Origin: Streptomyces sp. NBC_01591
GTDB taxonomy: Bacteria; Actinomycetota; Actinomycetes; Streptomycetales; Streptomycetaceae
Reading direction: 5' to 3'
DNA: 64,000 nt
Assembly (NCBI RefSeq): GCF_035918155.1
Contig: NZ_CP109327.1
Location: 682,001 to 746,000, forward strand
The notes under the pieces are model-generated. The model did not search any database. It was given only the letters and a program-made list of their open reading frames with translations, and was not told where the DNA came from. The position numbers and the translations under genes are program-made. Shown piece after piece: positions 5,129 through 38,056 of this stretch (the first letter of the stretch is position 1; each line of letters starts with the position of its first letter).

Positions 5129-5129
5129 G

Positions 5130-8749: not shown

Positions 8750-9727
8750 TTACCCGGGTGCCACCGCCGGCCAGGCACGTGGGTACGGCACGCGCAGGGC
8801 GGTCCCGTCGACCGTGGCGTGCTCGGCGGCAGCATGCAGGAGCCCGTCGCGCAGGACGAGCGCGCCGCTGCGGAGCATGGTCGTGACCAACTCGGCGGCG
8901 AGTACCTCAGGGGTCACGTCCAGGAGCCGTGCGGCGTCGGTCAGCCAGGCCCGGGCGTGCAAGTAGGGCTCGACCCCGGCAGCTGGGATGCCGTCGCGGA
9001 TCATCAGGGCGAAGGCGAAAATCCGGCGGGCGCCGTACCAGACCGCTCCGTCCGGGTCGTCGACGAGGCGCTGGGCCCGGCGCAGGGCCGCGGCGAGGGC
9101 GGCGTCGGGGTCGGTGGGGATCGGGCCGTGAGAGGGGAGGATCACTCGCGGGGCGAGGTCGGCCAGCCGCTTGAGGGAGGCGAGCGCGGTGGCGGCCGCG
9201 TCGAGCCCGTCGAGTGCGAGGTTGACCCAGCCGACGTCATAGTCCGACAGCGCGTCCCCGACCACGAGGAGCCGCTCCTCCGGCTGCCACAGGGCCAGAT
9301 GGCCCGGGGTGTGGCCGGGTGTTCGTATGACCTCCCAGTCCGTCTCCCCGAGGCGGAGGGCCTGCCCGTCTTCGAGGGGGACGTCGACCGTGTACGGAGC
9401 CACGGGCTGGTCGAGGTACTCGGCCGCACAGCAGCCCGGGTCCCTGCGAGAGATCGCCTCCGCCTCGGGTGCCCCGGCGGCGATGCCGACGCCGCCCGCC
9501 TGGAGGAGAGCGTTGCCGCCGACGTGGTCGGAGTGCCAGTGGGTGTTCACGACCAGGTCGACGGTCCCGGCGTGGGCGCGGGCCCAGGCGGCGGTCTCCT
9601 CGGCATGGGCCACGAAGCCGGTGTCGACCAGGGCCGGCTGCCGTCCGTGGAGCAGCAGGGTGTTGGAGTCGGGAAAGGGACGCTGCCACCACGTCAGCCA
9701 GGACGGCAGAGACGGCTGCGGGCTCAC
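8750..9727 (-). CDS. MBL-fold metallo-hydrolase
   Basis: A 325-residue metallo-beta-lactamase-fold protein. The zinc motif HWHSDH lies at residues 63-68 (His63, His65, Asp67, His68), followed by TPGHTPGHLALW, VVGDALSDYD and LPSHGP, which supply the remaining ligands. It has no signal peptide, so it is probably a cytoplasmic hydrolase of the glyoxalase II/lactonase type. The C-terminal helical region (about 230-325) is typical of such hydrolases. Its start codon overlaps the stop of the thioesterase gene by 4 bp, so the two form an operon. Confidence 0.9.
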   Translation of the reverse strand: MSPQPSLPSWLTWWQRPFPDSNTLLLHGRQPALVDTGFVAHAEETAAWARAHAGTVDLVVNTHWHSDHVGGNALLQAGGVGIAAGAPEAEAISRRDPGCCAAEYLDQPVAPYTVDVPLEDGQALRLGETDWEVIRTPGHTPGHLALWQPEERLLVVGDALSDYDVGWVNLALDGLDAAATALASLKRLADLAPRVILPSHGPIPTDPDAALAAALRRAQRLVDDPDGAVWYGARRIFAFALMIRDGIPAAGVEPYLHARAWLTDAARLLDVTPEVLAAELVTTMLRSGALVLRDGLLHAAAEHATVDGTALRVPYPRAWPAVAPG

Positions 9728-10182
9728 TCGGCGGGCCTGTTCACGCGGATCAGCGTCTGCTGTCCGTTGGCGACGAGCTTCCGCTCGCCGCCGTCCTGGA
9801 CGCCGTACACCTCCAACTGGCGCACGGTCAGGGTGCGTCCGGACTTCAGAACGGTGCCGATCGCCTCAAGACGGTCCCCGGCGGCGGGCGCCAGGAGGTT
9901 GATCTTGTACTCGACGGTGAGGACCTCGGCGTCCTCGGAGAGCAGTGTGAGCGCCGCGTAGCCACCGGCGCTGTCCGCGATGGCGCTGGTGGCCCCGGCG
10001 TGGACGTAGCCGTGCTGTTGGGTCACCTCGGGACGGGCCGGGAGTTCGATGTGTACGCGGCCGGGGCCGATGTGGGCGAGGCGCGCGCCGAGGTGGGTCA
10101 TGAGGCCCTGCTGGTCGAAGCTGTCCTGGACGCGCTTCTGGACCGCGGGGCTCGCCTGTTCCTGCTGCGTCTGGTCTTCCAC
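9724..10182 (-). CDS. PaaI-family hotdog-fold thioesterase
   Basis: A 152-residue single hotdog domain. GYVHAGATSAIADSAGGYAA contains the family's core helix, and the N-terminal part has FDQQGLMTHLGARLAHIGPG. The GTG at 10180-10182 is chosen because AAGGAG is nine bases upstream. An ATG 51 bases further upstream exists only because a 25-bp sequence is duplicated there. It probably hydrolyses acyl-CoA thioesters. It is translationally coupled to the metallo-hydrolase and lies downstream of the LysE gene on the same strand. Confidence 0.87.
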   Translation of the reverse strand: MEDQTQQEQASPAVQKRVQDSFDQQGLMTHLGARLAHIGPGRVHIELPARPEVTQQHGYVHAGATSAIADSAGGYAALTLLSEDAEVLTVEYKINLLAPAAGDRLEAIGTVLKSGRTLTVRQLEVYGVQDGGERKLVANGQQTLIRVNRPAE

Positions 10183-10206
10183 GTACGTGCTCTCCTTCGT
10201 GTCCGT

Positions 10207-10256
10207 ATCGAGTGGAGCGGGGTGGTTCGTCATCGAGTGGAGCGGGGTGGTTCGTC
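10207..10256. repeat. 25-bp perfect tandem duplication
   Basis: The sequence at 10207-10231 is repeated exactly at 10232-10256. It lies between the LysE stop codon (10255-10257, inside the second copy) and the thioesterase start. The copy junction creates an in-frame ATG (10231-10233) for the thioesterase that a single copy would not provide. Confidence 0.9.
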
Positions 10257-23792: not shown

Positions 23793-24770
23793 ATGGACGA
23801 ACGCACCGAGCGAGCGACCGGCGTGAGCGGGCGCAGTCCTCACTCCGGCGAGACGGACTCCGCCACCGAGACGTTCGTCGTCCATCGCAACCTGTTGTTC
23901 ACGGTTGCCTACGAGATGCTCGGCTCCGCCGCCGACGCCGAGGACATCCTTCAGGAGACCTGGCTGCGCTGGGCGGACGTCGACCACGAAGCGGCGCGGG
24001 ACCCGCGTGCCTTCCTGGTCCGCATCACCACGCGCCAGGCGTTGACACGGCTGCGTACGCTGCGTCGGCGCAAGGAGTCCTATGTCGGCCCCTGGCTGCC
24101 CGAACCCCTGCTGACGGCACCCGATGTCGCCGAGGACATCGAGTTGACCGACAGCGTCTCCATGGCGATGCTGCTCGTGCTGGAGACGTTCGCGCCGACC
24201 GAGCGGGCCGTGTTCGTGCTGCGCGACGTCTTCGATCTCGGGTACGACGAGATCGCGCAGGCCGTCGACAAGACCCCCGCCGCGGTCCGGCAGATCGCCC
24301 ACCGCGCACGGGCCCACGTCGCGGCGCGCCGACCGCGTGAGGTCGTATCCCCGCCCCGGACACGCAGCGTGCTTGCGACTTTCCAACAGGCAGTCGAAAC
24401 GGGCGACTTGCAGCGCCTGCTCGACATCATCGCTCCGGACGTCGTGCTGCTGACCGACGGCGGCGGAGTCGTACGGGCCGCACTGGAGCCTGTCGTGGGT
24501 GCCGAGGCGGTGGCCAACGTGCTGGGCAGGCTCGCGTCCGCGTCCTTGCAGCCGGCCCAGGTCAACGGCCACCCGGCACTGATCCTGCGCACGGGTGGCG
24601 AGATCGACACTGTCCGTGCGGTACGGCTCGAAAGCGGCCTCATCACCGGGCTCTACGCCGTCCGCAACCCCGAGAAACTTCACGCATCGGCCAGGAGACC
24701 GCAGTGGGCCGCTGAGCCCGAACGGATCCGCCTCGGGCGACCTGGACAGGCCCCAGCGAGGCGGAGCTGA
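23793..24770 (+). CDS. ECF41-type sigma factor with SnoaL-like C-terminus
   Basis: A 325-residue protein. Sigma region 2 is YEMLGSAADAEDILQETWLR, region 4 has FAPTERAVFVLRDVFDLGYD and AVDKTPAAVRQIAHRARAHV. The extra C-terminal SnoaL_2-like domain follows (LLDIIAPDVVLLTDGGGVVR, then NPEKLHA at the end), diagnostic of ECF41. In this group the C-terminal domain replaces an anti-sigma factor. ATG at 23793 has AGGAG six bases upstream. Likely target: the divergent AhpD-like gene. Confidence 0.93.
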   Translation: MDERTERATGVSGRSPHSGETDSATETFVVHRNLLFTVAYEMLGSAADAEDILQETWLRWADVDHEAARDPRAFLVRITTRQALTRLRTLRRRKESYVGPWLPEPLLTAPDVAEDIELTDSVSMAMLLVLETFAPTERAVFVLRDVFDLGYDEIAQAVDKTPAAVRQIAHRARAHVAARRPREVVSPPRTRSVLATFQQAVETGDLQRLLDIIAPDVVLLTDGGGVVRAALEPVVGAEAVANVLGRLASASLQPAQVNGHPALILRTGGEIDTVRAVRLESGLITGLYAVRNPEKLHASARRPQWAAEPERIRLGRPGQAPARRS

Positions 24771-24879
24771 CGCCATCTTTCAGGAGCGCGCGGCGGACGG
24801 TGGCGAGGCTGGTCGCGGCCCGGCCGGTGCCTCGGTCGCCCTTGTGTTCCGCGGATGCGGGGTATCACGGGGTGCCATG

Positions 24880-25430
24880 CCGGTCGAGATCAAGTGGTGC
24901 TTGCTGCCCTGGCGTCCGCGTTCGACCGGAGAAGGTCCGGTCCGAGCCCCCTTGAGGGCCGGGCTCCGCCGCAGCTGCCGCGGCGGATCCTGTTCCGGGG
25001 CCTGGTCGGCCCGCTGCGGGATGGCGTGCGGGGTGTTGCGGTGCCGCAGCCAGGTGCGGATCGCCTTCGAGTCGTAACCCTTGTCGCCCAGGACGTGGGC
25101 GGGCCGCACACGTGGCGTCCCGGCCCGATGCGGGGCACCCGTATCGCCTCCAACACGGCGGTGAACCGGGTGCAGGCGTTGGTGTTGCCACCCGTGACCA
25201 GCAGGGCGCGCGGGTGGCCCAGGCCGTCGCAGGCCAGGTGGATCTTGCTGGTCAGGCTGCCTCTGGGGCGTCCGAGGGCTGGGCTGCGATGCCCCGTTAC
25301 CTTTTCTGTGGCCCCGAAATGGGGCGCCTGGCCCCCGGGTCCGGTATGGCTGTGTGCCCCCTGTCGAAGTCGATGACCTGGGGGGTGTTGCCGCCGGGCT
25401 TCGGGGCACCGCTTGACCGCTGATGAGGGG
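24880..25430 (-). mobile_element. IS5-family transposase remnant, middle and C-terminal part
   Basis: Minus-strand frames give SGAPKPGGNTPQ, then after a frameshift GRPRGSLTSKIHLACDGLGH and TRFTAVLEAIRVPRIGPG, then after another near 25110 RVRPAHVLGDKGYDSKAIRT and RHRNTPHAIPQRADQ. These are successive conserved blocks of IS5-family DDE transposases. The C-terminal end is replaced by unrelated sequence. The N-terminal part of the same gene lies on the far side of the IS110 element (26886-27128). Confidence 0.72.
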
Positions 25431-25434
25431 CCTG

Positions 25435-25567
25435 ACGACTGCCTGGTCCGGTGCAACGCCGGACCTCTTCACGGGCGGGATGTCTGCGTAACGTGGTTGC
25501 CGGCGTGTGGTGCCGCAGGGACGGCCGGGACGGATGCGAAAGGCACGACCGAAGAGGGGCATCGCGC
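25435..25567 (+). ncRNA. Candidate bridge-RNA (seekRNA) region of the IS110 element
   Basis: IS110-group elements encode a structured guide RNA in the non-coding end upstream of the transposase. Here that region holds a clean hairpin, GGTCCGG-tgcaacg-CCGGACC at 25445-25465, followed by G-rich sequence to the ATG. This is a positional and structural suggestion only; the guide loops cannot be assigned by eye. Confidence 0.25.
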
Positions 25568-26803
25568 ATGGCCGACACCGTCATCGATATCTCCGGCATA
25601 GGTCTGTTCCTCGGCCTGGACCTGGGCAAGGAGTTCCACCACGCCCGCGGCCTGACCGGGCAGGGCAAGACCGTCCACGACAAGAAGCTGCCCAACACCG
25701 AGGCCCGCCTGCGGGAGTTGTTCGACAAGCTCAGGGCCAAGTTCGGCACCGTCCTGGTGATCGTGGACCAGGTCGCCAACATCGGCGCGCTGCCACTGAC
25801 CGTGGCCCGCGCGACCGGCTGCCGGGTCGCTTACCTGCCGGGACTCTCGATGCGCCGGGCCGCCGACCTCTACCCGGGCGAAGCCAAGACCGACGCCCGC
25901 GACGCCTTCGTCATCGCCGACACCGCCCGGACCATGCCGCACACCCTGCGCGCGGTGGACCGCGACGACGAGAAGCTGGCCGAGCTGACCATGCTCACCG
26001 GCTACGACAACGACCTGGCCGGCGAGGTCAACCGCACCTCCAACCGGCTGCGCGGCCTGCTCTCCCAGATCCATCCCACCCTGGAGCGGGTGGTCGGCCC
26101 CCGGCTGGGCTACCCCTACATCCTGGCCCTCCTTGAACGGCACGGCTCCCCGGCCAGGCTGAAGAAACTGGGCCACGCCCGCTGCGAGGCCCTGCTCAAG
26201 GCGCACGGCTCGCGCAAGGCCCACCACCTCACCGCGGAGATCTTCGACGCGCTTGCCGAGCAGACCGTCATCGTGCCCGGCACCGAGGCCAGCGCGCTGA
26301 TCGTGCCCGGACTTGCCGCCCAGCTCGCCGCCGCCCACACCCAGCGCCGCCAGGCCGAGCAGGAGATCGCCGCCCTGCTGGAGGCCCTCCCTCTTTTCCA
26401 CCTCCTGACCTCCATGCCCGGCATGGGCGTCAGGACCACCGCCGCCGTGATCGTCGCCATCGGCGACGGCACCACCTTCCCCACCGCAGGACACCTCGCC
26501 TCCTACGCCGGACTCGCCCCCGCCACCAAGTCCTCGGGCACCTCCATCCGTGGCGAGCACGCACCCCACCGCGGCAACCGACTCCTCAAACGCGCCCTCT
26601 TCCAGGCCGCGTTCGCCGCGATCGGCTGCAAATCCGACCGCTCCTCCCGCACCTACTACGACCGTCAACGCGCACGCGGCAAGACCCACACCCAAGCGAT
26701 CCTCCGCCTGGCCCGCCAACGTGTGAACGTCATCCACGCAATGATCCGCACCGGGGCCCTCTACGAACCACGAACCCCCGGCGACATCGGCCTCGCGGCC
26801 TGA
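25568..26803 (+). CDS. IS110-family transposase (DEDD)
   Basis: A 411-residue recombinase. The N-terminal RuvC-like DEDD domain shows FLGLDLGKEFHHA, VLVIVDQVAN, and DLYPGEAKTDARDAFVIADT. The C-terminal Tnp_20 domain has LLTSMPGMGVRTTAAVIVAI and ASYAGLAPATKSSGTSIRGE, which should include the catalytic serine. The ATG at 25568 fits family length; a longer frame upstream is not conserved. It catalyses site-specific insertion of its element. All core motifs appear intact. Confidence 0.95.
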   Translation: MADTVIDISGIGLFLGLDLGKEFHHARGLTGQGKTVHDKKLPNTEARLRELFDKLRAKFGTVLVIVDQVANIGALPLTVARATGCRVAYLPGLSMRRAADLYPGEAKTDARDAFVIADTARTMPHTLRAVDRDDEKLAELTMLTGYDNDLAGEVNRTSNRLRGLLSQIHPTLERVVGPRLGYPYILALLERHGSPARLKKLGHARCEALLKAHGSRKAHHLTAEIFDALAEQTVIVPGTEASALIVPGLAAQLAAAHTQRRQAEQEIAALLEALPLFHLLTSMPGMGVRTTAAVIVAIGDGTTFPTAGHLASYAGLAPATKSSGTSIRGEHAPHRGNRLLKRALFQAAFAAIGCKSDRSSRTYYDRQRARGKTHTQAILRLARQRVNVIHAMIRTGALYEPRTPGDIGLAA

Positions 26804-26885
26804 CAGCACCACCGCCCCTCCCTTCCTGACCCCATCACGCGCGCACCGGCACGGCCACCCCCGCCGTGCCGGCCACCGGGCTGCC

Positions 26886-27128
26886 CATCAGGCACCCGAT
26901 CCGCCGGGAACGTCCCGCTTCGCGGGACGTTCCCAAAAACCAGCACCAACTCCCACGAACCGACCCTGACAGGGTTGACGAAACAGATAGGGGCACCCCC
27001 CCCTGAGCATCGTCCGGCCGTCCAGCCGAGGCCGCCCCATCGCTCTGCGGGGCAGGGATGGGGCGCACGAAGTCCCGCTCGACTTCGGAGGGTTCATGGC
27101 GACGTATCACTCGGCCATGAACCATCAA
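26886..27128 (-). mobile_element. IS5-family transposase remnant, N-terminal part
   Basis: From the right end, frames read VIRRHEPSEVERDFVRPIPA, then MGRPRLDGRTMLRGG, and after an inserted stretch of about 70 bp RDVPGGSGA. These match the IS5 N-terminal pattern (IRRHELTDAEWEFVRPLLP, RPRLDDR-MLNGI, WRDVPERYG). It is separated from the rest of the transposase gene by the IS110 element. Confidence 0.65.
26906..26934. repeat. Perfect 13-bp hairpin in the IS5/IS110 junction
   Basis: GGGAACGTCCCGC (26906-26918), loop TTC, GCGGGACGTTCCC (26922-26934). The right arm coincides with the IS5 coding block for RDVP, and the left arm is an inverted copy. No T-run follows on either strand, so it is not a classical terminator. 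Confidence 0.8.
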
Positions 27129-27134
27129 TCAAGA

Positions 27135-27779
27135 TCACATGGATGGCAGACCCTGGGCAGAGGGGCGGGTGACCACATTGATGTTGAACGTGTGGGCACC
27201 CAGGCCGCCCGCGATGCCCATGAAGAGCAGGGCGAAGTGCTCCTGTCCGCGTGCGGTGCTGATGCCGCCGATGTCCAGCTGGGACGACGGGGACCAGCCA
27301 AGGTCGTTGAGCAGGCGGCCGGTGGTCCGTTTGGCTTCGGCATCGTCGCCGGAGAGGAAGACGGTGCTCGGGCCATCGAGACCGTCCGGGGCGGTCATCA
27401 CGGTGGAGTCCATGGTGCACAGCGTCTTGACGACGGGGGTCAGGGGGAAGGCTTCCTGGATCTGTTCACCCAGGCTGCTGTTGGGGTGCGAGAGCTCGGT
27501 GAAGTCGTCGGAGAGGCCGACCCCGACATCGATCAGCAGGGTGCCGGCCAACGCTGGTGCCCCGATGGAGTGCAGCAGTTCCACGGAGACGGCCCCCGGG
27601 GTGGCATTGACCAGTACCTCTGCGTGGGCAGCTGTCTCGCTCAGGCCCGCCACGGGGAGACCAAGGTCTGTCCGCTCCTCAGGCCGACGTGAACCGAGGA
27701 GCACATCGTGTCCTGCGTCGCTCCAGCCTTGAGCCAGTGCTCGGGCGACGTTTCCGGTGCCAAGTAGTCCTATACGCAT
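27135..27779 (-). CDS. NADPH-dependent F420 reductase-like oxidoreductase
   Basis: A 214-residue NPD-fold protein. The dinucleotide-binding start is MRIGLLGTGNVARALAQGW, then HDVLLGSRRPEE, LVNATPG, LLIDVGVGLSDDF, and TVFLSGDDAEAK with DLGWSPSSQLDIGG. The length is normal. Such enzymes transfer hydride between NADPH and F420 or other flavins. The last residues (RPSAQGLPSM) are not family-like, and the IS5 remnant abuts the 3' end, so insertion may have replaced the natural C-terminus. Confidence 0.88.
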   Translation of the reverse strand: MRIGLLGTGNVARALAQGWSDAGHDVLLGSRRPEERTDLGLPVAGLSETAAHAEVLVNATPGAVSVELLHSIGAPALAGTLLIDVGVGLSDDFTELSHPNSSLGEQIQEAFPLTPVVKTLCTMDSTVMTAPDGLDGPSTVFLSGDDAEAKRTTGRLLNDLGWSPSSQLDIGGISTARGQEHFALLFMGIAGGLGAHTFNINVVTRPSAQGLPSM

Positions 27780-28198
27780 GGTGTGACGCTAGCCATTGTC
27801 GGGGCTCAGCGAATCGGACCGCGGGCCCGAGTGGACCGGCACCAAAGACGTAGTCCTGTGGTTGCTTCCCACTCGCTACGACAAAACTGCCGAGTCCTAC
27901 CGGGCAGCCGTCACCCACACATCGCTCCTGATGTGAGCGTGACACTTTGACGACAACTCCTAGGACCACTGACGTACGCGCACGGTACTACCGAGAGACG
28001 ATGACGTGGTGTCAGGTGTGGTGAAAGGCTGGCCCGCATGACGAGAACGCCCGGGACAGCGGGCGGATGAGGGAGCGCTCCGCGTTCCCCGGCCCACCTT
28101 CTGCGGCCCCGGCCGGGTCGGACCGGGCCGCCCCGCTCTTCTCGCTCTCCGCACCACCTTCTGTGCCGCTCTCTCACGCACCCACTCAAGGAGACCGT

Positions 28199-29779
28199 GT
28201 GACCACCATCAGCGCAGCGGTGCGCCGCGCCTCGTCCGTGGGCCTCGCCCTCACCGCGTGCTTCACCGCGCTGCCCGGCACGTCGGCGACAGCCGCGGAC
28301 CGCGACGGCGGAGCGGTGACGGCCGGGGCCGGCCTCGACCGCTACTACCACCAGCGCCTCGACTGGCGCAGTTGCGTCGTGGGCCCGGACGATGCCACGG
28401 GCCATGACCTGGAGAAGGCCGGCGCACGCTGCGCCGACGTGACTGTCCCACTCGACTACGCCGATCCCCGTGGACGTACCCTCACGGTCGCGATATCCCG
28501 ACTCGCTGCCACCGACACCCGTCACCGGATCGGCTCACTGCTGTTCAACCCCGGAGGGCCGGGCGGGCCCGGCCTCGGCTACTCCCCGCTCATTCGCCAG
28601 GTGTTGAAGGAGACCGGCGCACGCTACGACGTCATCGGCTTCGACCCGCGTTTCGTCGGCCGCAGCACCCCGCTCAACTGCGGCTGGCCCGTCGGTTCCT
28701 CCGTGCTCTCGGCCGGTCGAAGCCGGGCGAGCTTCGAGCGCCAGGTCGCCCTGCAGAAGGGCCTGGCCGACAGGTGCCGGGCCACCAACGCGTCCGTGCT
28801 GCCGTACGTCACCACCCGCAATACGGCCCGCGACATGGACGTCATCCGGGGCGCGCTCGGCGAGCGCAGGGTCTCCTACCTGGGCTGGTCCTACGGCACC
28901 TACCTGGGCACGGCCTACACCCAGATGTTCCCCCGCCGCTACGACCGGGTGGTCCTCGACGGGGCACTGGATCCACGCCGCTACAACCCTCGGCTGATGC
29001 GCGGCGTGGAGCGCGAGAACGAGCAGGCCCTCGCCGACTGGGCCACCTGGGCAGGGCAGCGCCACAGCGTCTACGGCCTCGGCCGCACGCGCGGACAGGT
29101 GCTCGCCACGATCAACCGCGTCGTCGCAACGTCTGCGCGCCACCCGCTGACTGTCGGCACCGGCGCGGACACGTTCCGGCTCGACGACACCCAGGTGCCC
29201 TTCGTGATCTTCTCCGGGACCGCGGACGACACCGATGAGGCACGAGCGGCGGCCGGGGATCAGATCTCCGTGCTCGCCAGGGCCGCAACGGGTCAACCTA
29301 CCCAGCTGTCACGGCAGTTCGCCGTAATGTTGCGGGGCGCACTCACCGACGAGGGGTCACGCAACGGCAGTGTGCAGTCCGCGATCCTCTGCGGCGATGT
29401 CTCCGTGCCGCGCGACCCCGAGAGCTATTGGCGGGACATTGAACGCAGCCGGGCCGAGCATGCGCTGTTCGGCCCCCTCACCAACAACATAGGGCCGTGC
29501 GCCTTCTGGGACCGGCCCCGCGAGAAGCCCACCCGGGTGCGTCACGACACCCCGGCACTGATCGTGGCCGCCACCGGCGACCCGCGCACCCCCTACACGG
29601 GCAGCGTGGCACTGCACAGCCTGCTGCCGAGCTCCAAGCTGCTCACCCTCAAGGGCGCCAACCGGCACGCGCTCTACGGCCAGTACGGCAACGCCTGCGT
29701 GGACAACGAGGTCAACCGGTACCTGGCCACCGGAAAGCTGCCCGCGCAGGACCGGACCTGCGTGAAGCGGAGCCACTGA
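28199..29779 (+). CDS. Secreted alpha/beta hydrolase, tripeptidyl-aminopeptidase (S33) type
   Basis: A 526-residue exported hydrolase. The GTG at 28199 has AAGGAG five bases upstream. The signal peptide spans roughly residues 1-33 (basic start, VGLALTACFTALPG, AATA-type cleavage site). Then come VPLDYADP, LLFNPGGPGGPG, the nucleophile elbow GWSYGTYLG, and the C-terminal TAP-like domain with ATGDPRTPYTGS and GANRHALYGQYGNACVD. This is the SlpD/SlpE/Tap family of mycelium-associated peptidases. Monocistronic. Confidence 0.93.
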   Translation: MTTISAAVRRASSVGLALTACFTALPGTSATAADRDGGAVTAGAGLDRYYHQRLDWRSCVVGPDDATGHDLEKAGARCADVTVPLDYADPRGRTLTVAISRLAATDTRHRIGSLLFNPGGPGGPGLGYSPLIRQVLKETGARYDVIGFDPRFVGRSTPLNCGWPVGSSVLSAGRSRASFERQVALQKGLADRCRATNASVLPYVTTRNTARDMDVIRGALGERRVSYLGWSYGTYLGTAYTQMFPRRYDRVVLDGALDPRRYNPRLMRGVERENEQALADWATWAGQRHSVYGLGRTRGQVLATINRVVATSARHPLTVGTGADTFRLDDTQVPFVIFSGTADDTDEARAAAGDQISVLARAATGQPTQLSRQFAVMLRGALTDEGSRNGSVQSAILCGDVSVPRDPESYWRDIERSRAEHALFGPLTNNIGPCAFWDRPREKPTRVRHDTPALIVAATGDPRTPYTGSVALHSLLPSSKLLTLKGANRHALYGQYGNACVDNEVNRYLATGKLPAQDRTCVKRSH

Positions 29780-30332
29780 CCGCCCGATGCCGCGTCGCCC
29801 CGGTCCCCCGGCCGCGCGCCGGTGGGCCGGGACGGCTCGGCGGCCCCTCAGGAACGGGCCATGGCCGGCGTCGAGCAGGCGACACCGAGAACTCCTCGAC
29901 CATCCGGAGCGTCCGAAGCGGCGCGTGTCGGCGAAAGCTCGGTTCGGACAGTGGTAGTCGCCCGACGCCGGTCGTACGGTCTCAGCACATCGGCGAGCAA
30001 CAGCATGCAACGGCACGGCACGGTTCTGCCGGAACGAGGACATCGGATGACGGGCATCATGCCCTGAACGAATACGACGGGGTCCCGCGGACTCCTGGTC
30101 CGTGCACTCCGCGCCCGTCGGCAGGCCGGGCACTGCCGGCACCTCGAGCATGGGTCCTTGGACCCAGCACCCTCTCCCACCGGGTGGCGCAGTGGGCCAC
30201 CGAAGACGCCGGGCGCGGAGATCGCCTTCAGCCGGGTGCTGGATCCGGTCTCGGGTCGGGTCGGGTCGGGTCGGGTCGGGTCGGGTCGGGTCGTCCCTGC
30301 ATACCTTGCCTGCGAGTCCCTGAAACGATCAG
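29780..30332. other. Non-coding interval between convergent genes
   Basis: About 550 bp with no frame I can support on either strand. Its one notable structure is the (TCGGG)8 array at 30251-30290. It separates the S33 hydrolase from the radical-SAM/peptide pair, which run toward each other. Confidence 0.5.
30251..30290. repeat. (TCGGG)8 microsatellite, G-quadruplex-prone
   Basis: Eight exact copies of the pentamer TCGGG occupy 30251-30290. The plus strand therefore has eight G-triplets with 2-nt spacers, which readily satisfies quadruplex rules. It lies 43 bp beyond the stop codon of the candidate precursor peptide. Confidence 0.92.
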
Positions 30333-30482
30333 TCAGTAGTCCCAGCCGAAGATGCTGGCGATGTCATGGCATTCGTCGGTCTGATCTGCTGCCAGGGTGA
30401 GTTCGTGCCGACTGGCCTCAATCCGTTCGGCGAGCGTAACCGTTGTCTCGATGTCCTGTTCACGTGCGGGCATGTTCGGCAT
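30333..30482 (-). CDS. Candidate RiPP precursor peptide (cyclophane/triceptide-type)
   Basis: A 49-codon gene overlapping the radical-SAM gene by 23 bp. ATG at 30480-30482 has GGAAGGA about ten bases upstream, inside the maturase 3' end; a second in-frame ATG follows three codons later. The first ~35 residues are charged and helical (AREQDIETTVTLAERIEASR), like a leader. The last residues are Asp-Glu-Cys-His-Asp-Ile-Ala-Ser-Ile-Phe-Gly-Trp-Asp-Tyr. Phe45-x-Trp47 and Trp47-x-Tyr49 fit the aromatic-x-x pattern cyclised by 3-residue cyclophane maturases. The role is inferred from context. Confidence 0.65.
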   Translation of the reverse strand: MPNMPAREQDIETTVTLAERIEASRHELTLAADQTDECHDIASIFGWDY

Positions 30483-31629
30483 GGCGCAGGATTCCTTCCA
30501 ATAGGTTGATCTTGCTGGTGCGGCAGTATGCGGTCTCGGTGGTGTCCAGGCGGCCGGTCTCGAAGTACTTGTTGGCTACCTGCCCGCCGCGGCAGTAGGC
30601 GAAGTACTCGCACTGCGTACGGCAGTTGGCGATGCCGGCCAGGGCTTCCGCGACCCACGGCACCTGCTCCGCGCGGGCTGCGAGGTCGGAAAGTGGGGTG
30701 TCCAGGACGTTGCCGGCGGTGAACGGGCCATGGTGGGGTGAACGGAACCCGGCAAGTTCCGCGCCGACGGGAAGGTAGTGGCCGTCCCAGGTCACCAGGG
30801 GCAGGGGCATGATCGGACGATCGGCACGCTGTGCCGCGGCTCCGGAGAGCTCCTCGCGGATGTAGGTGTAGACGTGGTCGAGATCCCTGATCCGGATACG
30901 AGGGTCGGCCTGCCGGCTGGCGGCCAATTCCTGCCAGAAGGCGATGGCCCCGGTCTGCGGCAACTGCCCGCCTGCGTATACGCCTTTCTTCTCGGCCAGG
31001 TTCACGGCCAGGCTTTCGCAGTCCAGCTCGCAGGCGAAACGGTACAGGCGACCGGCCGCTCCGGCAGACAGGTCTGACACCACCGCGATGATATTGAAGC
31101 CAATACCAGCGCGTCGCAGCGAATCGATTCCACGCATGGCCTGCGTCGTGCTCGGGTGTCCCGCCCAGTCCATCCGCGAGGCGTTCGCTTCACCAGGGCC
31201 ATCGATGCTCACCGTCACTTGGACGGGTACCTGCGAAAAGACTTCGCACCACGCGTCATTGATACGGGTGGCGTTCGTCGTCACCTTATGAGTCACCGAA
31301 TGCGTCTCATCCGGCCCGAAGGGCGCCACCAGGGAACGGAAGTAGGCCGGGTCCACCGCCAGCGGTTCTCCGCCGTGCCACGCGACGGTCACCGGATGCT
31401 GCCTGGACCACTCCCGGACGCCGGTTGCCACGGCCTCGGCGACCTCCACACTCATACGCCGCGCCACCTTCCGGTCGGGCAGGTAGCAGTAGGAGCAATC
31501 GAGATTGCAAAGAGTCGTCGGCTGCATCAGCACGGCCGACGCCGACCTCGCCAGCCTGACCCGACCCGTCTGCATGGCCCCCGCGTCACCAGGATCCACC
31601 TGACGAGCTGTCACGCTCGAAAGTGTCAT
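30460..31629 (-). CDS. Radical SAM/SPASM peptide maturase (cyclophane-forming type)
   Basis: A 389-residue enzyme. Cys41, Cys45 and Cys48 form the CxxxCxxC of the SAM-binding [4Fe-4S] cluster (CNLDCSYCY), and WHGGEPL is the GGEP motif. The C-terminal SPASM domain has ANCRTQCEYFAYCRGG, ANKYFETGR and TTETAYCRTSK, closest in my memory to GrrM/OscB- and AmcB-like cyclophane synthases. The ATG at 31627 has GGAGG seven bases upstream. It likely installs C-C crosslinks in the peptide encoded by the overlapping downstream ORF. Confidence 0.85.
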   Translation of the reverse strand: MTLSSVTARQVDPGDAGAMQTGRVRLARSASAVLMQPTTLCNLDCSYCYLPDRKVARRMSVEVAEAVATGVREWSRQHPVTVAWHGGEPLAVDPAYFRSLVAPFGPDETHSVTHKVTTNATRINDAWCEVFSQVPVQVTVSIDGPGEANASRMDWAGHPSTTQAMRGIDSLRRAGIGFNIIAVVSDLSAGAAGRLYRFACELDCESLAVNLAEKKGVYAGGQLPQTGAIAFWQELAASRQADPRIRIRDLDHVYTYIREELSGAAAQRADRPIMPLPLVTWDGHYLPVGAELAGFRSPHHGPFTAGNVLDTPLSDLAARAEQVPWVAEALAGIANCRTQCEYFAYCRGGQVANKYFETGRLDTTETAYCRTSKINLLEGILRHAEHART

Positions 31630-31881
31630 GGCCATGCCTCCACTGTTCCGGTATGCCGCCCGTTTCCGCGGCTCTGCCCCCTGCGCGGCGCCCGGGGCTA
31701 TTTCCACCCGCCCAACGCCGAATCCCGACCCAGGTCACGGCGGAGATCGGGCCGACGCGGGGCCGGGCGCACGACCGCGGACGCGTGCGCAGACGATCAC
31801 CGCTGGGCCCGAAAGCCGGCCCGGGGCGGGCGGGGATCCCTCGCGCCCCCGGCTCGATGACGAGGTGCCGGACCGGCCTGT

Positions 31882-32472
31882 TCAGGCAACGACGACAGGT
31901 TCACCGCTCAGTACGACACCGGCCAGGCGCAGCTCGTCGAGTGCGGCGCGCGTGGTGTCGGCGGAGACGCCGGCGGTGTAGTCGAGCAGGACCCGCACCC
32001 TGAGGCCCGCGCGCACTCCGTCCAGTGCGGTCGCCTTCACACAGTGATCGGTCGCGATGCCGACGATGTCGAGATCGGTGACGCCGCGGGCCTTCAGCCA
32101 GTCGGACAACGTCGTACCGTCCTGAGTGAAGCCCTCGAAACCGCTCTTCGAGGCGGAGTGCGCGCCCTTGAAGACGACCTCGTCGACGTGCCCGGAGTCC
32201 ACGGCGGGCGCGAAGTCCGGATGGAACTCGCCTCCCTCGCTGCCGACGACGCAATGCACGGGGAACGAGTCCCGGAAGTCGGGGTTCTCGGAGAAGTGGG
32301 CGCCCGGGTCGATGTGGTGGTCACGGGTGGCGACGACGAAGGCGTACTGCTCGTCGGGACGCCTGACCAGCTCGGCGATGGCGGCGGCCCGCCCCGCACC
32401 GCCCTTCACCGGAATGCTCCCGCCCTCGCAGAAGTCCTTCTGCACATCGACGATGATGAGTGCACGACGCAT
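31882..32472 (-). CDS. pncA: Nicotinamidase (isochorismatase-like)
   Basis: A 196-residue cysteine hydrolase. It shows RRALIIVDVQKDFCEGGSIP (Asp9 in the first catalytic position), VVATRDHHIDPGAHF (metal and catalytic region), VVFKGAHSASKSGF, and IVGIATDHCVKATALDG with the nucleophilic Cys. The combination is typical of PncA, which converts nicotinamide to nicotinate for NAD salvage. Monocistronic, minus strand, with about 190 bp to the next upstream gene. Confidence 0.92.
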   Translation of the reverse strand: MRRALIIVDVQKDFCEGGSIPVKGGAGRAAAIAELVRRPDEQYAFVVATRDHHIDPGAHFSENPDFRDSFPVHCVVGSEGGEFHPDFAPAVDSGHVDEVVFKGAHSASKSGFEGFTQDGTTLSDWLKARGVTDLDIVGIATDHCVKATALDGVRAGLRVRVLLDYTAGVSADTTRAALDELRLAGVVLSGEPVVVA

Positions 32473-32661
32473 GGAAGAGCCCTTTCACTCGGAGATCATC
32501 TCTCCCCGATGGTTGTCCTTCCGCCGGCGTGCGGGCGCGCCACTCGCCGGTCATTCACCCGAGCGGCGTGGCATGCGCGGCAATGAGGTACAGCGCTTCC
32601 TTCCCCACTGGAACCATGGAGCCGCCCACGACCACGACGGCGAGGCGGCTGATGTTGCTGG

Positions 32662-33384
32662 TCAGGGCTGTCCGTTCGGCCTCGGTGGCTGCCATCGGCC
32701 GGGTGTGTGCAGGCGGGCGGTCAGTTCGGTGACAGCTGTTCCGGTGTCGGCCGGGAGCTCGGACACGACAGTGAGCGCCGCGGTGATGTGCTCGGGCTTG
32801 GCGCGCGGGTCCGCCTGGACGGCGAGGACGGCGTCCAGGGCAGGCATCGGGGTCAGGGCGTGGTGCCAGGCTCGGCGGGCGGGGCCTGTGGCGTAGTGCG
32901 CGGTGAGAGTCTCGGCGGGTGCCAGGGGGACGCCCGCGCGGCGTGCCAGGGGGGCGAGACCCGAGGCGACGAGGTCGCAGATCTCGCCGGACCGGGCGGT
33001 GTTGCGGTGGTGATCGTCGCGAATCTGATAGATCGCCGCGTACACGAGGGCTTGCTCACGGTCCGTCGCTGGGGACGGCAGGGGCGTCTCGTGCCAGTAC
33101 TCCTCGACGGTCGACGGGGTGATCCGGGGGCGGGTTCGGCCGTCGGGTGCCTGTGTCGTGGCGATGCGTATGGCGCCGAGGGCGATGGCGTTCTCGGAGA
33201 GCCGTCGCAGACAGCGGAACTCGCCCGACTCCCTCGCCCCGGCAGCATGCCGGATCTGTGTGACGGTCGGGCCGTCCGTCCAGATGAGACGGGGGTCCGC
33301 GTCGTCCGCGTGGATGTCGTGGCCGAGATGCTCGGTGAGCGCGGCGGCAAGCCGCAGCAGGCCGGCCTCGGGCTCGCGGGTCAT
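32662..33384 (-). CDS. Hypothetical protein, coupled to upstream gene
   Basis: A 240-residue predicted soluble protein, alpha-helical and Arg/Ala-rich (ATDREQALVYAAIYQIRDDH, EICDLVASGLAPLARRAGVP). No family recognised. Its ATG (33382-33384) overlaps the stop of the upstream gene as ATGA, so they are co-translated. Similar two-gene pairs occur in Streptomyces genomes in my recollection, but the function is not known to me. Confidence 0.72.
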   Translation of the reverse strand: MTREPEAGLLRLAAALTEHLGHDIHADDADPRLIWTDGPTVTQIRHAAGARESGEFRCLRRLSENAIALGAIRIATTQAPDGRTRPRITPSTVEEYWHETPLPSPATDREQALVYAAIYQIRDDHHRNTARSGEICDLVASGLAPLARRAGVPLAPAETLTAHYATGPARRAWHHALTPMPALDAVLAVQADPRAKPEHITAALTVVSELPADTGTAVTELTARLHTPGRWQPPRPNGQP

Positions 33385-34073
33385 TGGTGGTCCGGCCGGG
33401 GCAGGACTGGGACGGTCTGCGGATAGCCGATGGCCGTGATCTCGGCCGTCAGCTGTTCGGGCGTCACATCGGGGTTGAGCGCCGCCACCATTTCCGGGGT
33501 CAGCGGACGCATCGCGTAGATGTGGCGTACGGCGTCCAGGTCCACCGGGGTGTTGTAGTAGCTCCGGGCCCAGTCGGCGAACCCCTCGGGCGTACCGTCC
33601 ACGAGGAAGGAGAACAGGTACGACGCCCCATCGGGGTCGCTGCCTCCGCCGTCGTACTCGATCTGGCCCGTTCGCCACCGGTCGTCGCCGGTCTCGCGCC
33701 ACAGGCAGGCCGTCACATTCGGAGTCCCGTCCTCGATGAAGGACGGCTCCTCGACGCAGGACCGGAACACCTCCGGTACCGAGTCCACGACTCCCGGCCA
33801 GACACTTCGGTCACCTGCGTATGGGCTCATGGGCGACTCGTGATCGAACCCGCGGATGTACACGCCCTCGGGCGAGAAGATGACCGAGTACTCGTCGCCT
33901 GCTCCGTTGTCCATCCAGCCCAGTTCGCGCCCTGGGGACCAGTGGGCGTCGAATCCGTGGCGGCGGTATGGGCCACCGGGCGCGAGGATCGCTTCCGCCA
34001 TCGCCATGGAGCGGCACCGGTCACGCAAGGCCGGGATGTCGGGAAGGTGTTGGGCGACGTCATGAACGGTCAT
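33381..34073 (-). CDS. Hypothetical protein, first gene of coupled pair
   Basis: A 230-residue acidic protein; start at ATG 34071. The sequence is rich in aromatic and Gly/Asp turns (GRELGWMDNGAGDEYSVIFS, VYIRGFDHESPMSPYAGD, VWPGVVDSVPEVFRSCVEEP), suggesting a compact beta-rich domain. The C-terminal third has LDAVRHIYAMRPLTPEMVAA. I recognise no family. The stop overlaps the start of the downstream partner by 4 bp. Confidence 0.72.
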   Translation of the reverse strand: MTVHDVAQHLPDIPALRDRCRSMAMAEAILAPGGPYRRHGFDAHWSPGRELGWMDNGAGDEYSVIFSPEGVYIRGFDHESPMSPYAGDRSVWPGVVDSVPEVFRSCVEEPSFIEDGTPNVTACLWRETGDDRWRTGQIEYDGGGSDPDGASYLFSFLVDGTPEGFADWARSYYNTPVDLDAVRHIYAMRPLTPEMVAALNPDVTPEQLTAEITAIGYPQTVPVLPRPDHQ

Positions 34074-34194
34074 GCCTGCATTCCAGCAGACGCCTACGAC
34101 AATCGAACGCCCGGCTGTCGTCTGCCGCTGCCGTGGTCCCGGGATGAACGTGCCCACGGACCGGTCATTGATCGGATTCATCAGGTCCGGCGGG

Positions 34195-34698
34195 TCAGTG
34201 TGAGTGATCAGTGAGGCCGTCGAAGAGAGGGTGCGACAGGTGCTCCGTCCACGGCCACGGTGGGGTTTCGGGTGCTTGGCGCCAGGTCAGATGCACTCGG
34301 GCGAAACGAGGCGGGTCTCCTTCGATGCTGAACAACACTTCGTCGCATCGGCTGCAACGGGCGAGTGCGGTGGCCTGCGTGCCGAACAGCGGATGCCTCT
34401 GGCCCACCTCGACGTGCAGCTGTGCCTCCAGAACTCTGGCCGTCGCGCTGGGGGCCAGAAGCCAGGGTTCCGGCAGGGGCCTCGATTCGCCGTCGAAGAG
34501 ACAGTCGTAGCCGGGATCGAGGCCTGCGTCCGCCCAGGGCCCGCGTGCCCCGGCGTCTCGCACTGCCAGGCGCCGACACGACGAACAACGGCGAACCTCT
34601 CGCATCGGACCGCGGCGACCACGCACGGGTTCATCGGGGAGAGCTTGTCGCAGGGTGCGGTCGATCAGTTCGGTTCCGCACGATGGGCAGGTATCCAT
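34195..34698 (-). CDS. Zinc-ribbon hypothetical protein
   Basis: A 167-residue protein starting MDTCPSCGTELIDRTLRQAL. Three CxxC pairs (CPSC, CSSC, CSRC) suggest two zinc ribbons, one near residues 3-45 and another fed by the C-terminal CSRC. It contains a PLPEPWLLAPSATARVLEAQ linker. Zinc ribbons usually mediate nucleic-acid or protein contacts; no specific role is visible. It lies upstream of the coupled hypothetical pair on the same strand. Confidence 0.72.
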   Translation of the reverse strand: MDTCPSCGTELIDRTLRQALPDEPVRGRRGPMREVRRCSSCRRLAVRDAGARGPWADAGLDPGYDCLFDGESRPLPEPWLLAPSATARVLEAQLHVEVGQRHPLFGTQATALARCSRCDEVLFSIEGDPPRFARVHLTWRQAPETPPWPWTEHLSHPLFDGLTDHSH

Positions 34699-34702
34699 GG
34701 CC

Positions 34703-35817
34703 TCAGTCTGGCTCACGCTCCGAACACGGTGGGGTGCGGGCATCGAGAGCAACGATCGGTAGCAGTGTGGCGGTGGCGGCGCGCTGCGCCACGATCAGGG
34801 TCGGGTGGTGGGTGCCTCTCAGGGACAGTGCGATGAGCGGAAGCAGAGTGAGGGCGGCGGAGACCGTGCCAACCAAGGCGGGGCCGGTCAGGCCGAGGGA
34901 GGAGTCCAGGGCCCGCCCGGCGATGCCGGCGCCGTAGGCGGAGGTGGTCAGGGCCGAGGTGAGCGTCGGGGCGTCGCCGGCGAAGCGGACGGCAAGGGAG
35001 GTGACGACCGGGTTCACGGTGAATCCGGTCAGGGCCATGAGGAAGATCAGAGCCATGGCCGCCACCGGGCTGTCCGACAGTGGGATCAGCAGGAGCAGGG
35101 TCAGAGCGGTGGCTGCCGCGGCGGTGATGGTTGTGGCCATCGGACGGCGGTCCCCCAGGCGGCCGCCGATGGTGTTGCCGCCCAGAGCGCCGACGCCGAA
35201 GGCGATCAGGACCAGTGGGACGGCGCCTTCCGCGATGCCGGCGCGGCCGGTCAGGAGCGGGGTGCTGTAGGTGTACGTCGCCAGGACACCGCCCGTGATC
35301 AGCATCGCGGCGCCGAGTGCCAGCCACAGTCGGCCCTGCCGCAGGGCCCGGACTTCGGCCCGCACCGACACCTCTGCGCGCCGCTCGATGGTGGGGACGA
35401 AGCGGCCGACGAATGCGGCGGCGAGGCCGGAGAGGACGGCCAGGGCCCAGAAGGGGCCGCGCCAGCCGGTGGGCTGTCCGGCGAGGGAGCCGATCGGCAC
35501 GCCGACGACGTTGGCCAGGGTCAGGCCGCCCATCATGACGCCGACGGCCCGGGTGGAGTTGCCGGGGCCCGCTGCGGCGGTGGCGATGACGAATCCGACG
35601 GCCCAGAACGCCCCGGTGGCCAGGGCGGTGACGACACGGGCTACGAGGACGACCGTGAAGGAAGAGCTGAGGGCAGCGACGACGTGTCCGAGGGCGAAGA
35701 CGGCCAGGGCCAGGACCAAGGTCTGCCGCTGGGGCAGGCGCAGGGTGGCCAGGGCCATGGTCGGCCCACCGACGATCATGCCGATGGCGAAGGCGGTGAT
35801 CAGGAGGCCGGGTCGGG
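34703..35817 (-). pseudogene. MFS transporter, N-terminus lost
   Basis: The frame encodes about 370 residues of an AraJ/Cml-type MFS efflux protein: LLITAFAIGMIVGGPTMALA, VVLVARVVTALATGAFWAVG, GVMMGGLTLANVVGVPIGSL, and LGGNTIGGRLGDRRPMATTI. It has about 11 hydrophobic helices but lacks the first helix and start. At about 35815 it fuses into the 3'-truncated alcohol dehydrogenase remnant. Expression as an intact transporter is unlikely unless an internal start is used. Confidence 0.75.
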
Positions 35818-36162
35818 CAGGTAGCGGCGTACGGGGGCGGGGCCGCCGCGCAGGCCGACGTGGGTGAAGAACAGTTCCTGGCCGTCGATGGCCACCTCGT
35901 GGGGGACGCCGACGAAGCCGACGTTGCCGCCGGGCCGTGCCGAGTGCAGGGCCTGCTGCATGGCCTGGGCGGTGCCGACGCATTCCAGGACCGAGTCGGC
36001 GCCGATCCCGTCGGTGAGGTCCTTGACGCGGGCGACGCCTTCCTCGCCGCGCTCGACGATGATGTCGGTGGCGCCGAACTCCAGGGCGAGCTGCTGCCGG
36101 GGTTCGTGGCGGCTCATGGCGATGATCCGTTCCGCGCCCAGTTCCTTGGCGGCGATCACCCC
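35815..36162 (-). pseudogene. Zinc-dependent alcohol dehydrogenase fragment, both ends lost
   Basis: About 115 residues of the coenzyme domain of an MDR dehydrogenase: GVIAAKELGAERIIAMSRHE, LALEFGATDIIVERGEEGVA, GADSVLECVGTAQAMQQALH, GGNVGFVGVPHE and FFTHVGLRGGPAPVRRYLPD. The catalytic zinc domain and Rossmann glycine motif upstream, and the C-terminal helices, are missing. Its 5' side runs directly into a 5'-truncated MmyB regulator on the other strand. Confidence 0.8.
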
Positions 36163-37005
36163 GGAGCGGGCCGGGCTGCCCGCAGGGTCCCGGCGCCGTG
36201 TCCCGGGGCTGCGCAGGAGCGAGGTCGCGGCCCTGGCCGACGTCAGCGTCGAGTACTACGCCAAACTCGAACGCGGCAACCTCGCCGACGTCTCCCCGGC
36301 CGTCCTCGAGGCCGTCGGCCGCGCGCTGCAGCTCGACGACGCCGAGCGCGCCCATCTCCTGCACCTGGCCCGGGCCGCCGACGGCACCGATACCCTCACC
36401 CGCCCCCGGCGCCGGACCACCCGGCAGTGGAAGCCGCACCGCAGCCTGCAGTGGACCCTGGACGCGATCACCGCCGGGCCCGCGTTCGTCCGCAACGGCC
36501 GCATGGACCTGCTGGCCGCCAACCGGCTCACCCACGCCTTCTACAGCGACGTCTACACCAGCGGTCAGCCCTCCAACCTCGCCCGCTTCAACTTCCTCGA
36601 CCCCGCCTCCCGGCGCTTCTACCCCGACTGGGACCTCGCCGCCGACGTCGCCGTCGCCATCCTGCGCACCGAGGCCGGGCGCAACCCGCACGACAAGGAC
36701 CTGCACGACCTGGTCGGCGAACTGTCCACCCGCAGCGAGAAGTTCCGCACCCGCTGGGCACCCACAACGTCCGCCACCACGGCACCGGAGTGAAGCGGTT
36801 CCACCACCCGGCCGTCGGAGAGCTCACCCTCGCCTACGAGGGCCTGGACATGGCCGCCGAACCCGGTCTCACCCTCACCATCTACACTGCCGAACCCGGC
36901 TCGCCCTCGGAGGAGGGGCTGCGTCTGCTCGCCTCCTGGGCCGCCACCCAGGAAACCGAAACTGCTACAGAACCGTCCACGGCCCACTGGCCACGGCAGG
37001 GCTGA
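36155..37005 (+). pseudogene. MmyB-type XRE regulator, 5'-truncated and frameshifted
   Basis: The frame enters at ITPERAGLPAGSRRRVPGLR, then EVAALADVSVEYYAKLERGN (HTH) and AVLEAVGRALQLDDAERAHL. The ligand-binding domain continues to DLHDLVGELSTRSEKFRTRW; near 36760 a frameshift moves the rest (GVKRFHHPAVGELTLAYEGL, AEPGSPSEEGLRLLASWAAT) to another frame ending at 37005. The first 10-20 residues and the promoter are missing, jointly with the 5' end of the divergent dehydrogenase. Confidence 0.8.
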
Positions 37006-37191
37006 GCCCGAGGTGGGTCGCGAGAGCCTCTTCGATGCTCTCGTCGCACTCGACGCTCTCGTCGAGGAACTGCTCGACTTCACGCAGCAGCCGGCGCACA
37101 ACATGGAGCTGTCACACCCCGATGGCCCCACCGTCGTCTGCGACATGTCCGGATGGCCGTTCGCAGAGGCGGACATCCAATTGGCGAGGCA

Positions 37192-37959
37192 CTACTGCGC
37201 GTTGCGCCGACGCGCGAGGTGGACGGTGATGTCGGCGGCAATCTCAACCGTCTCAGGCAGAACCTGCATGATCTGGCCAAATACCTGCTCCCGCTCCGAG
37301 GTCGGCAATACGAGATAGGCCGAGATGGTCGAGAGTTGGCCGACGTATTCGGTTGCGCTGATCGTCAAGCGCCGTTCGACCACGTCCTGTTGAACACCGG
37401 TGAACCATTCAGACCGTTGGAGTTCCGTACCCGGCCACTGCATCTCATGCTCCGGAGGTGTCCCGTCCGGGGACGGAATCTCGTCGCTCTCCAGGAACGG
37501 TGCTCGTGCCGCGCGAACAGCTTCCTCCACAGCCGGGTCGGCCAGCTGGATCGGCCCGCCGAACGAGGCGAACACGCCACCCGGCTCCAGCAGCGCGGCC
37601 ATGCGTGACCACCGACCCTCCGGGTTAGTCCAATGCAGCGCTGCTGCCGCATAGACCAGCCCGTACCTCTCGCCCGGTTGCAAGTCCTCGAACGCGGCCT
37701 GCACTGTCCTGACGCTTGCCGGCACGTGCTTGCGCAACTCGGCGAGCATGGCCCTGTCAGGATCGGTCGCGGTGACCATGACCTGCCGTTGAGCGAACAG
37801 GCGGGTTGCTTTGCCTGTCCCGGCGCCAATCTCGAGGGCACGCCGAGCCGGCTGACCCGCGTACGCCATCACCATGTCGAAAAGCTCCACGGGATACCCC
37901 GGCCGGAACCGTTCGTATGCTTCTGCCATCATTCCGAAGCTCAGTGCACGACCAGACAT
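37192..37959 (-). CDS. Class I SAM-dependent methyltransferase
   Basis: A 255-residue methyltransferase of the UbiE/YcgJ kind: SFGMMAEAYERFRPGYPVEL, motif I ALEIGAGTGKATRLFA, VTATDPDRAMLAELRKHVP, and AAALHWTNPEGRWSRMAALL. The ATG at 37957 has AGGA eight bases upstream; another ATG lies nine bases earlier. The substrate is unknown. The upstream region carries a 13-bp x5 tandem repeat that may be regulatory. A similar protein is at 49632-50411. Confidence 0.88.
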   Translation of the reverse strand: MSGRALSFGMMAEAYERFRPGYPVELFDMVMAYAGQPARRALEIGAGTGKATRLFAQRQVMVTATDPDRAMLAELRKHVPASVRTVQAAFEDLQPGERYGLVYAAAALHWTNPEGRWSRMAALLEPGGVFASFGGPIQLADPAVEEAVRAARAPFLESDEIPSPDGTPPEHEMQWPGTELQRSEWFTGVQQDVVERRLTISATEYVGQLSTISAYLVLPTSEREQVFGQIMQVLPETVEIAADITVHLARRRNAQ

Positions 37960-37992
37960 GCCGAGCATCCTGACACGATCTGAGTCGTCAGT

Positions 37993-38056
37993 ACTTGGTC
38001 TTTTCACCTGGCCTTTTCGCTTGGCCCCCCACTTGGCGTTCTCACTTGGCGTTTTC
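37993..38056. repeat. 13-bp degenerate tandem repeat, five copies
   Basis: Units acttggtcttttc (37993), acctggccttttc (38006), gcttggcccccc (38019, one base short), acttggcgttctc (38031) and acttggcgttttc (38044). The array begins 34 bp upstream of the methyltransferase start on its promoter side. Near-constant helical spacing of 13 bp could position a regulator. Confidence 0.8.

Follow-up and report, generated by a model that had tools for sequence, protein, structure and literature searches.

An AmcB-family maturase gene overlaps a gene for an uncatalogued IFGW-type precursor peptide in Streptomyces sp. NBC_01591

Maturase gene and overlapping precursor gene

The window analyzed here is a stretch of 64,000 nucleotides from Streptomyces sp. 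NBC_01591 (contig NZ_CP109327.1). On its minus strand, positions 30460..31629 encode a radical SAM/SPASM-type maturase of the AmcB family, as assigned using NCBIfam, Pfam and an AlphaFold2 model. The protein has 389 amino acids when counted from the preferred start, the ATG at 31629 with a GGAGG 7 nt before it, and the stop codon ends at 30460. Further in-frame starts lie upstream (ATG at 31635 and GTG at 31707); the maturase residue numbers used below count from the ATG at 31635. The maturase scored 453.5 bits against NF041718 (AmcB, NCBIfam cut-off 425) and matched Radical_SAM in Pfam, while the second-best family was GrrM/OscB (TIGR04261; 230.9 bits, below the cut-off of 310). The genome (10.25 Mb, 3 contigs) contains only this one AmcB match above the cut-off. 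AmcB is a named cyclophane-forming family, so neither the enzyme nor the gene layout is new.

The comparison set comprised 77 loci with scores of 200 bits or higher, which correspond to 75 distinct maturases; lower-scoring loci were dropped. The three cysteines of the radical SAM cluster motif C43NLDC47SYC50 (31486..31509, minus strand) were present in 75/75 maturases, as were Cys338, Cys342, Cys348 and Cys371 near the C-terminus (30523..30624, minus strand), which form one auxiliary-cluster set; C130 was also invariant. In a profile alignment the C-terminal set aligned with the Aux II region of anSMEcpe and the Aux I ligands were absent, a trait of the whole 75-maturase set and not of the window enzyme alone. 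Three of the four cysteines fall on what we take to be the Aux II ligands of anSMEcpe; the alignment stops short of the fourth. The folds closest to the AlphaFold2 model (pLDDT 87, pTM 0.87) were those of anSMEcpe and ChlB, with TM-scores relative to the query of 0.66-0.68 and 0.67-0.71, respectively. Among RiPP maturases ChlB, solved together with its leader peptide (PDB 9gm3, 9gmc), has the nearest fold, but it shares only 19-21% identity with the window maturase; no paper on ChlB chemistry was found in the open-licence literature.

A small ORF of 49 codons follows on the same strand (30333..30482), running from an ATG at 30482 to a stop codon ending at 30333 and terminating in I-F-G-W-D-Y. 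Its first 23 bp (30460..30482) overlap the 3' end of the maturase gene, and its GGAAGGA ribosome-binding site (30493..30499) sits 10 nt ahead of the ATG, within the maturase codons for Glu380-Gly381. The complete maturase with its CNLDCSYC motif, the 23-bp overlap, the GGAAGGA site and the C-terminal hexapeptide had all been listed in a preliminary description of this DNA, and each was found on re-reading exactly as described. In all six loci with an IFGW-type precursor for which DNA was read, the precursor starts 23-26 bp inside the maturase gene, the GGAAGGA is identical and the sequence TGGAAGGAATCCTGCG ahead of the start is the same. The maturase would be translated first and, because the ribosome-binding site of the precursor lies within the last maturase codons, the two proteins are probably made together by coupled translation.

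The length of the ORF alone is uninformative, since 150 ORFs of at least 30 amino acids overlap positions 24000-38000 of the window and the +1 frame of the precursor stretch is likewise stop-free in 5/6 loci. Across the six loci, dN/dS of the precursor was 0.29-0.90 (15 pairs), and 191 of 447 precursor differences fell on third codon positions. Taken alone, this codon evidence is modest, because 239 of 10000 column shuffles gave at least as large a third-position share and another frame (+1) is open in 5/6 loci. That such an ORF follows the maturase in 6/6 loci is partly circular, the IFGW class being defined by the ORF itself; stated independently, each of the six distinct maturases that reach 70% identity and whose DNA was read, the window included, is followed by an ORF of this class, and the next three (58-64% identity) are followed by an ORF with the same leader. 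Since the ORF follows six maturases, shows these dN/dS values and codon positions and belongs to a set of 32 distinct IFGW-type precursors, it is more than a chance reading frame, and the 49-codon ORF is a real gene.

The window precursor matched no NCBIfam or Pfam family at E 0.05 (the best matches were unrelated families at 0.054 and 0.056), and three IFGW-type relatives likewise matched no NCBIfam family at E 0.05. The precursor class is therefore new in the sense that it is absent from the curated libraries searched. Of the 'new family' proposed earlier, the part concerning the precursor stands, whereas the enzyme is an AmcB and the layout is that of AmcA/AmcB; 'unannotated' was also only partly true, many precursor relatives being annotated as 'hypothetical protein'. 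A second precursor elsewhere in the genome was rejected on three profile searches, which used the profile of the class itself (A1), AmcA_1 and AmcA_3a: the first gave one significant match (E 3.7e-32; the other six at E 1.4 or worse), AmcA_1 found no second precursor, and the ten matches to AmcA_3a, none better than E 0.53, were at chance level. A promoter scan at the cassette found no promoter-like site, and a terminator scan found one terminator-like site, inside the maturase gene and at chance level.

Conserved core and shared leader of the precursors

The protein search yielded five relatives besides the window's own precursor, and an 11-row profile extended these to 33 proteins. A 36-row alignment contains 32 distinct IFGW-type rows, of which 30 either belong to these 33 proteins or were typed from loci. 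In the core I44-F45-G46-W47-D48-Y49 (30336..30353, minus strand), Gly and Trp are each kept in 32/32 rows. Phe-Gly-Trp is intact in 31/32, the lone exception (P0138) having Leu for Phe, which confirms the conserved aromatic core of the preliminary description. The Tyr two residues after Trp is kept in 28/32; two rows have Ser, and in another two (P0136 and P0141) the peptide stops at the residue following Trp, perhaps because of a short contig in the case of P0136. Given 31/32 for Phe-Gly-Trp vs 28/32 for Tyr, the conserved unit is Phe-Gly-Trp and not Phe-x-Trp-x-Tyr. The homologue comparison suggested earlier thus gave a conserved short ORF beside orthologous maturases, with a residue at the Tyr position that varies.

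A core at the extreme C-terminus, claimed for the family, holds for the window and for 10/32 rows in total that end exactly at W-x-Y, while the other 22 extend or end differently: two end one residue past Trp and 20/32 run 2-40 residues further (31 rows were counted by script, and L086, which ends GWASLWRRF, was added by eye). A strictly terminal core is a minority trait. The window precursor has a single Asn, at residue 3, and none in the core. The prerequisite of a triceptide, an aromatic residue followed at i+2 by a residue bearing beta hydrogens, is present in F-G-W (31/32) and in W-x-Y (28/32).

Upstream of the core, the segment L17-Q34 (LAERIEASRHELTLAADQ; 30381..30434, minus strand) has R20, I21 and L28 in 32/32 rows each, and the leader common to the relatives reads LxERIxxxRxxL, with an E and an A further on. 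When the leader profile was compared with the precursors of the non-canonical LYSG, WEG and RADVL classes, the same segment aligned (E 7.8e-5, probability 61%); the match to canonical AmcA leaders was weak (probabilities of 9.7% and 2.5%). The same leader also occurs with a C-terminus of ...LDIFCHFLGIC (P0142, P0144, L115) and with one of ...SDRxxKxDVxxVxW-x-x (P0150, L007, L088), giving one leader family with three swapped cores. A constant leader with an exchanged core is the usual RiPP pattern.

The SDRxxKxDVxxVxW tail resembles the beginning of a Peptidase_S74 domain. The ORF after the precursor in L007 and in genome G297 (L088/L128) carries the remaining part (PF13884, 33.7 and 29.3 bits, cut-off 22). 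An AmcB-type leader is fused to an apparent first part of S74 at L007 (~5082-5572), L128 (~9547-10244) and P0150, the remainder having been read after L007 and L088/L128; the domain is split with one half on the RiPP precursor, and in both L007 and L088 the next ORF shares a GTGA overlap with it. The genome of the window itself also has a split S74 pair, with AmcB not nearby (L139, contig C1, ~379 kb); its first ORF ends SDRAVKTSVSPVRWDR, and the other frame has STWRYRW...RHLGPMAQDW. This suggests that the S74 split also exists apart from AmcB. The Trp-x-Arg end of the S74-tail precursors had been considered as a triceptide motif, a candidate weakened by the like ending of this split gene. In other precursors (L010, L089, L090, L091, L116, L117), LYSG or a variant of it comes after features of the CxxCG-like and C-x-H kinds, and the one tested (L090) matched no NCBIfam family. 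Further classes are RADVL (L035, L050), WEG (L092-L094) and VFHKFxSMSQTWSR (L108, L110).

Maturase clade and the residue switch at 214-217

The ORFs downstream of the 75 maturases were classed by motif, with class labels of our own: WDN 24, AWNHFENIP 24, IFGW 6, LYSG 6, WEG 3, S74 2, RADVL 2, HKF 2, FCHFLGIC 1, other 2 and none 3; by eye, L027 ('other') and L039 and L042 ('none') have WDN/FDN ORFs missed by the motif or distance rule. The maturases with IFGW-type precursors form one clade (support 100/99), and 0/500 shuffles were as low, so enzyme clade and precursor class coincide. This clade is nested in a larger AmcB clade of 20 rows (support 100/98), all of whose precursors are non-canonical. 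An IFGW-type precursor directly follows the maturase in six distinct loci from three genera (Streptomyces, Nonomuraea and Microtetraspora), and 7 of 8 maturase/precursor protein pairs that each apparently come from one genome are IFGW-type. Records named AmcB pair with IFGW (P0008), FCHFLGIC (P0029), S74-tail (P0030) and RADVL (P0075) precursors, their own or on the same contig; proteins now named AmcB therefore accompany several unlike substrate classes. Because the RADVL precursors in the 20-row clade (L035, L050) contain only one or two aromatic residues, the clade may lack one common chemistry. One genome (G353) holds both an IFGW-type (L086) and a canonical WDN-type (L113) AmcB pair, which offers a natural setting for testing whether the substrates are orthogonal.

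Two alignment columns are invariant on each side yet different: residue 217 is Lys in 20/20 clade maturases vs Glu in 48/48 canonical ones, and residue 347 is Tyr (20/20) vs Phe (48/48). Position 331 is Ala in 18/20 clade rows vs Phe in 47/48 canonical rows, 356 is also a nearly fixed difference, and at 214 the clade has Ala or Val (20/20) where the canonical rows have Glu (48/48). The window maturase reads Ala214-Glu-Lys-Lys217 (30985..30996, minus strand) where canonical AmcB has E214-E-x-E217, and thus lacks both Glu214 and Glu217, a feature found here and outside the NCBIfam definition. Among 36 lower-scoring loci, mostly GrrM-like with possibly a few partial AmcB and not assigned to families one by one, Glu217 is found in 34 and Glu214 in 33 (Asp in 3). 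The two HKF maturases, outside the 20-row clade, also have Lys217, and the outlying L041 and L082 have Val. Among the best 120 of 358 nearest proteins, 85 have Lys217 and 35 Glu217; 18 of the 85 keep Glu214, including P0020, which is probably an IFGW-type maturase with P0149 as its apparent partner. In the AlphaFold2 model, residues 214-217 come right after a predicted strand (208-213), and in the radical SAM fold the end of this sixth barrel strand lies at the active-site end of the barrel. The switch at 217 suggests changed substrate handling but does not prove it, since it amounts to about one phylogenetic event.

The probable crosslink, alternative readings and genomic setting

The genes, their pairing, conservation and overlap, the family and the clade are established, and the description of a radical SAM maturase with a downstream, overlapping RiPP-type precursor, related to AmcB and GrrM, was upheld by the family scores and the conserved pairing. 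The three-residue cyclophane it had also proposed is a candidate linkage; the clade has lost Glu217, and the core lacks the Asn of AmcA motifs. The pair probably makes a crosslinked peptide. With a probability of roughly 0.6, we read the locus as a minimal RiPP cassette in which an AmcB-family enzyme forms a carbon-carbon link in Phe-Gly-Trp, most likely a three-residue ring between Phe45 and Trp47. The enzyme would recognise the helical leader LxERIxxxRxxL, and that ChlB, close in fold, was solved with the leader of its precursor favors this reading. A 5'-deoxyadenosyl radical would then start a link between side chains of the C-terminal Phe-Gly-Trp, probably from the aromatic ring of Phe45 to the beta carbon of Trp47; P0138, with Leu for Phe, could not form such a ring. 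A second, Trp-x-Tyr ring may form where Tyr is present, and removal of the leader by a protease and export would depend on genes elsewhere.

Triceptides are made by radical SAM enzymes (XncB, OscB, MscB, YxdB, HaaB, YhhB) that act on aromatic-x-residue motifs and bond the aromatic ring to the beta carbon of the residue at i+2, with Arg, Asn, Asp, Ser and Ala named as second partners in passages of PMC11002830. The FGW and WxY of the window core both fit this ring-to-i+2 geometry, but neither Trp nor Tyr, which would be the second partners here, is named in those passages. GrrM/OscB, although second-best by score, differs in that most of the lower-scoring loci have Glu where the window maturase has K217. 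No paper on an AmcB enzyme, IFGW cores or S74-fused precursors was found in the open-licence literature, and one 'AmcB' match was a chemical abbreviation.

It is possible, though unlikely, that the AmcB clade of this RiPP cassette makes a different bond, such as another C-C or C-O link among the side chains of Phe, Trp and Tyr or a change to a single residue, and that 'triceptide' is the wrong label. The Lys217 shared by the clade and most of the best 120 of the nearest proteins, the loss of Glu214 in 20/20 clade loci and cores very unlike AmcA, two with almost no aromatic residue, point this way; but the fixed differences arose on one or few branches, P0020 and 17 more of the best 120 keep Glu214, Lys217 is also present in both HKF maturases, which are not clade members, and the overall NCBIfam score is still that of AmcB. 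Equally tentative is a broader proposal, that a distinct clade is misfiled under AmcB in which the substrate and the active-site acid (E217 to K) have changed, with one leader family serving unrelated cores (FGW, split-S74 tails, FCHFLGIC, LYSG, RADVL and WEG) and a crosslink of a new kind.

We consider it improbable that this is an ordinary AmcA/AmcB triceptide pair (NF041718 with NF041721, NF041722 or NF041723) whose precursor was merely missed by the AmcA models and which forms both the Trp-x-Tyr and the Phe-x-Trp ring. The enzyme scores above the AmcB cut-off, and canonical precursors also lie downstream, usually overlapping AmcB, with motifs at the C-terminus. However, two canonical AmcB partners tested match NF041721 and NF041722, whereas the window precursor is unmatched by AmcA models at E 0.1 and has no WDN/FDN or NHFENIPTFYNWN motif; the canonical precursors seen all have Asn-containing motifs, Tyr is lost in 4/32 rows, and the maturase belongs to the separate, well-supported clade with K217 and Y347 where canonical rows have E and F. 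That the small ORF arose by chance or encodes a small regulatory protein, with the true substrate elsewhere, is very improbable: spurious ORFs of such length are many and the codon-position bias is modest with another frame open, but the peptide is conserved in 32 distinct rows, beside the maturase wherever its DNA was read, and the three genome searches found no other precursor.

The Phe-Gly-Trp cassette adds to AmcB a precursor class overlooked by annotation models. The enzyme clade, leader family, swapped cores and the charge change fixed just past barrel strand six offer a handle on how enzymes of the radical SAM maturase type come to switch substrates or chemistry, and the two-gene size makes the cassette easily tested in E. 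coli.

Of 392 genomes sampled from the genus of the window, 4 carry the two-gene unit, the window included. Neighboring genes (GC3-based gene picker, at least 60 amino acids, blastp E 1e-6) were compared among the window (~10 kb flanks), L125, L126 and L127 (~8 kb; L125 repeats L009), and L006, L008 and L009 (4 kb); the L085 maturase is identical to that of L009 (Streptomyces sp.). No neighbor was common to these loci save one weak 41% pair at unlike positions in L126 and L127, which agrees with the minimal unit described earlier, and a conserved protease or exporter partner was rejected for the flanks compared. The cassette would thus turn up in unrelated chromosomal settings. A plasmid origin was also rejected, the sole plasmid match at E 1e-40 being a GrrM homologue on a Nostoc plasmid. 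In another locus (L129, 8440-14195), a lasso-type operon with a cyclase like that of albusnodin/ikarugamycin (below cut-off), a B2 protein above cut-off and an ABC transporter lies immediately ahead of an AmcB whose precursor is of the FCHFLGIC type; nothing similar to these genes was seen in any IFGW locus compared. In the window, an isochorismatase-type gene lies upstream of the cassette and a gene for a TAP-like hydrolase is convergent with it; an IS110-family transposase gene lies 3.5 kb away (25451-26803), and a perfect 8.6-copy TCGGG tandem repeat (30251-30293) lies 40 bp past the precursor stop codon.
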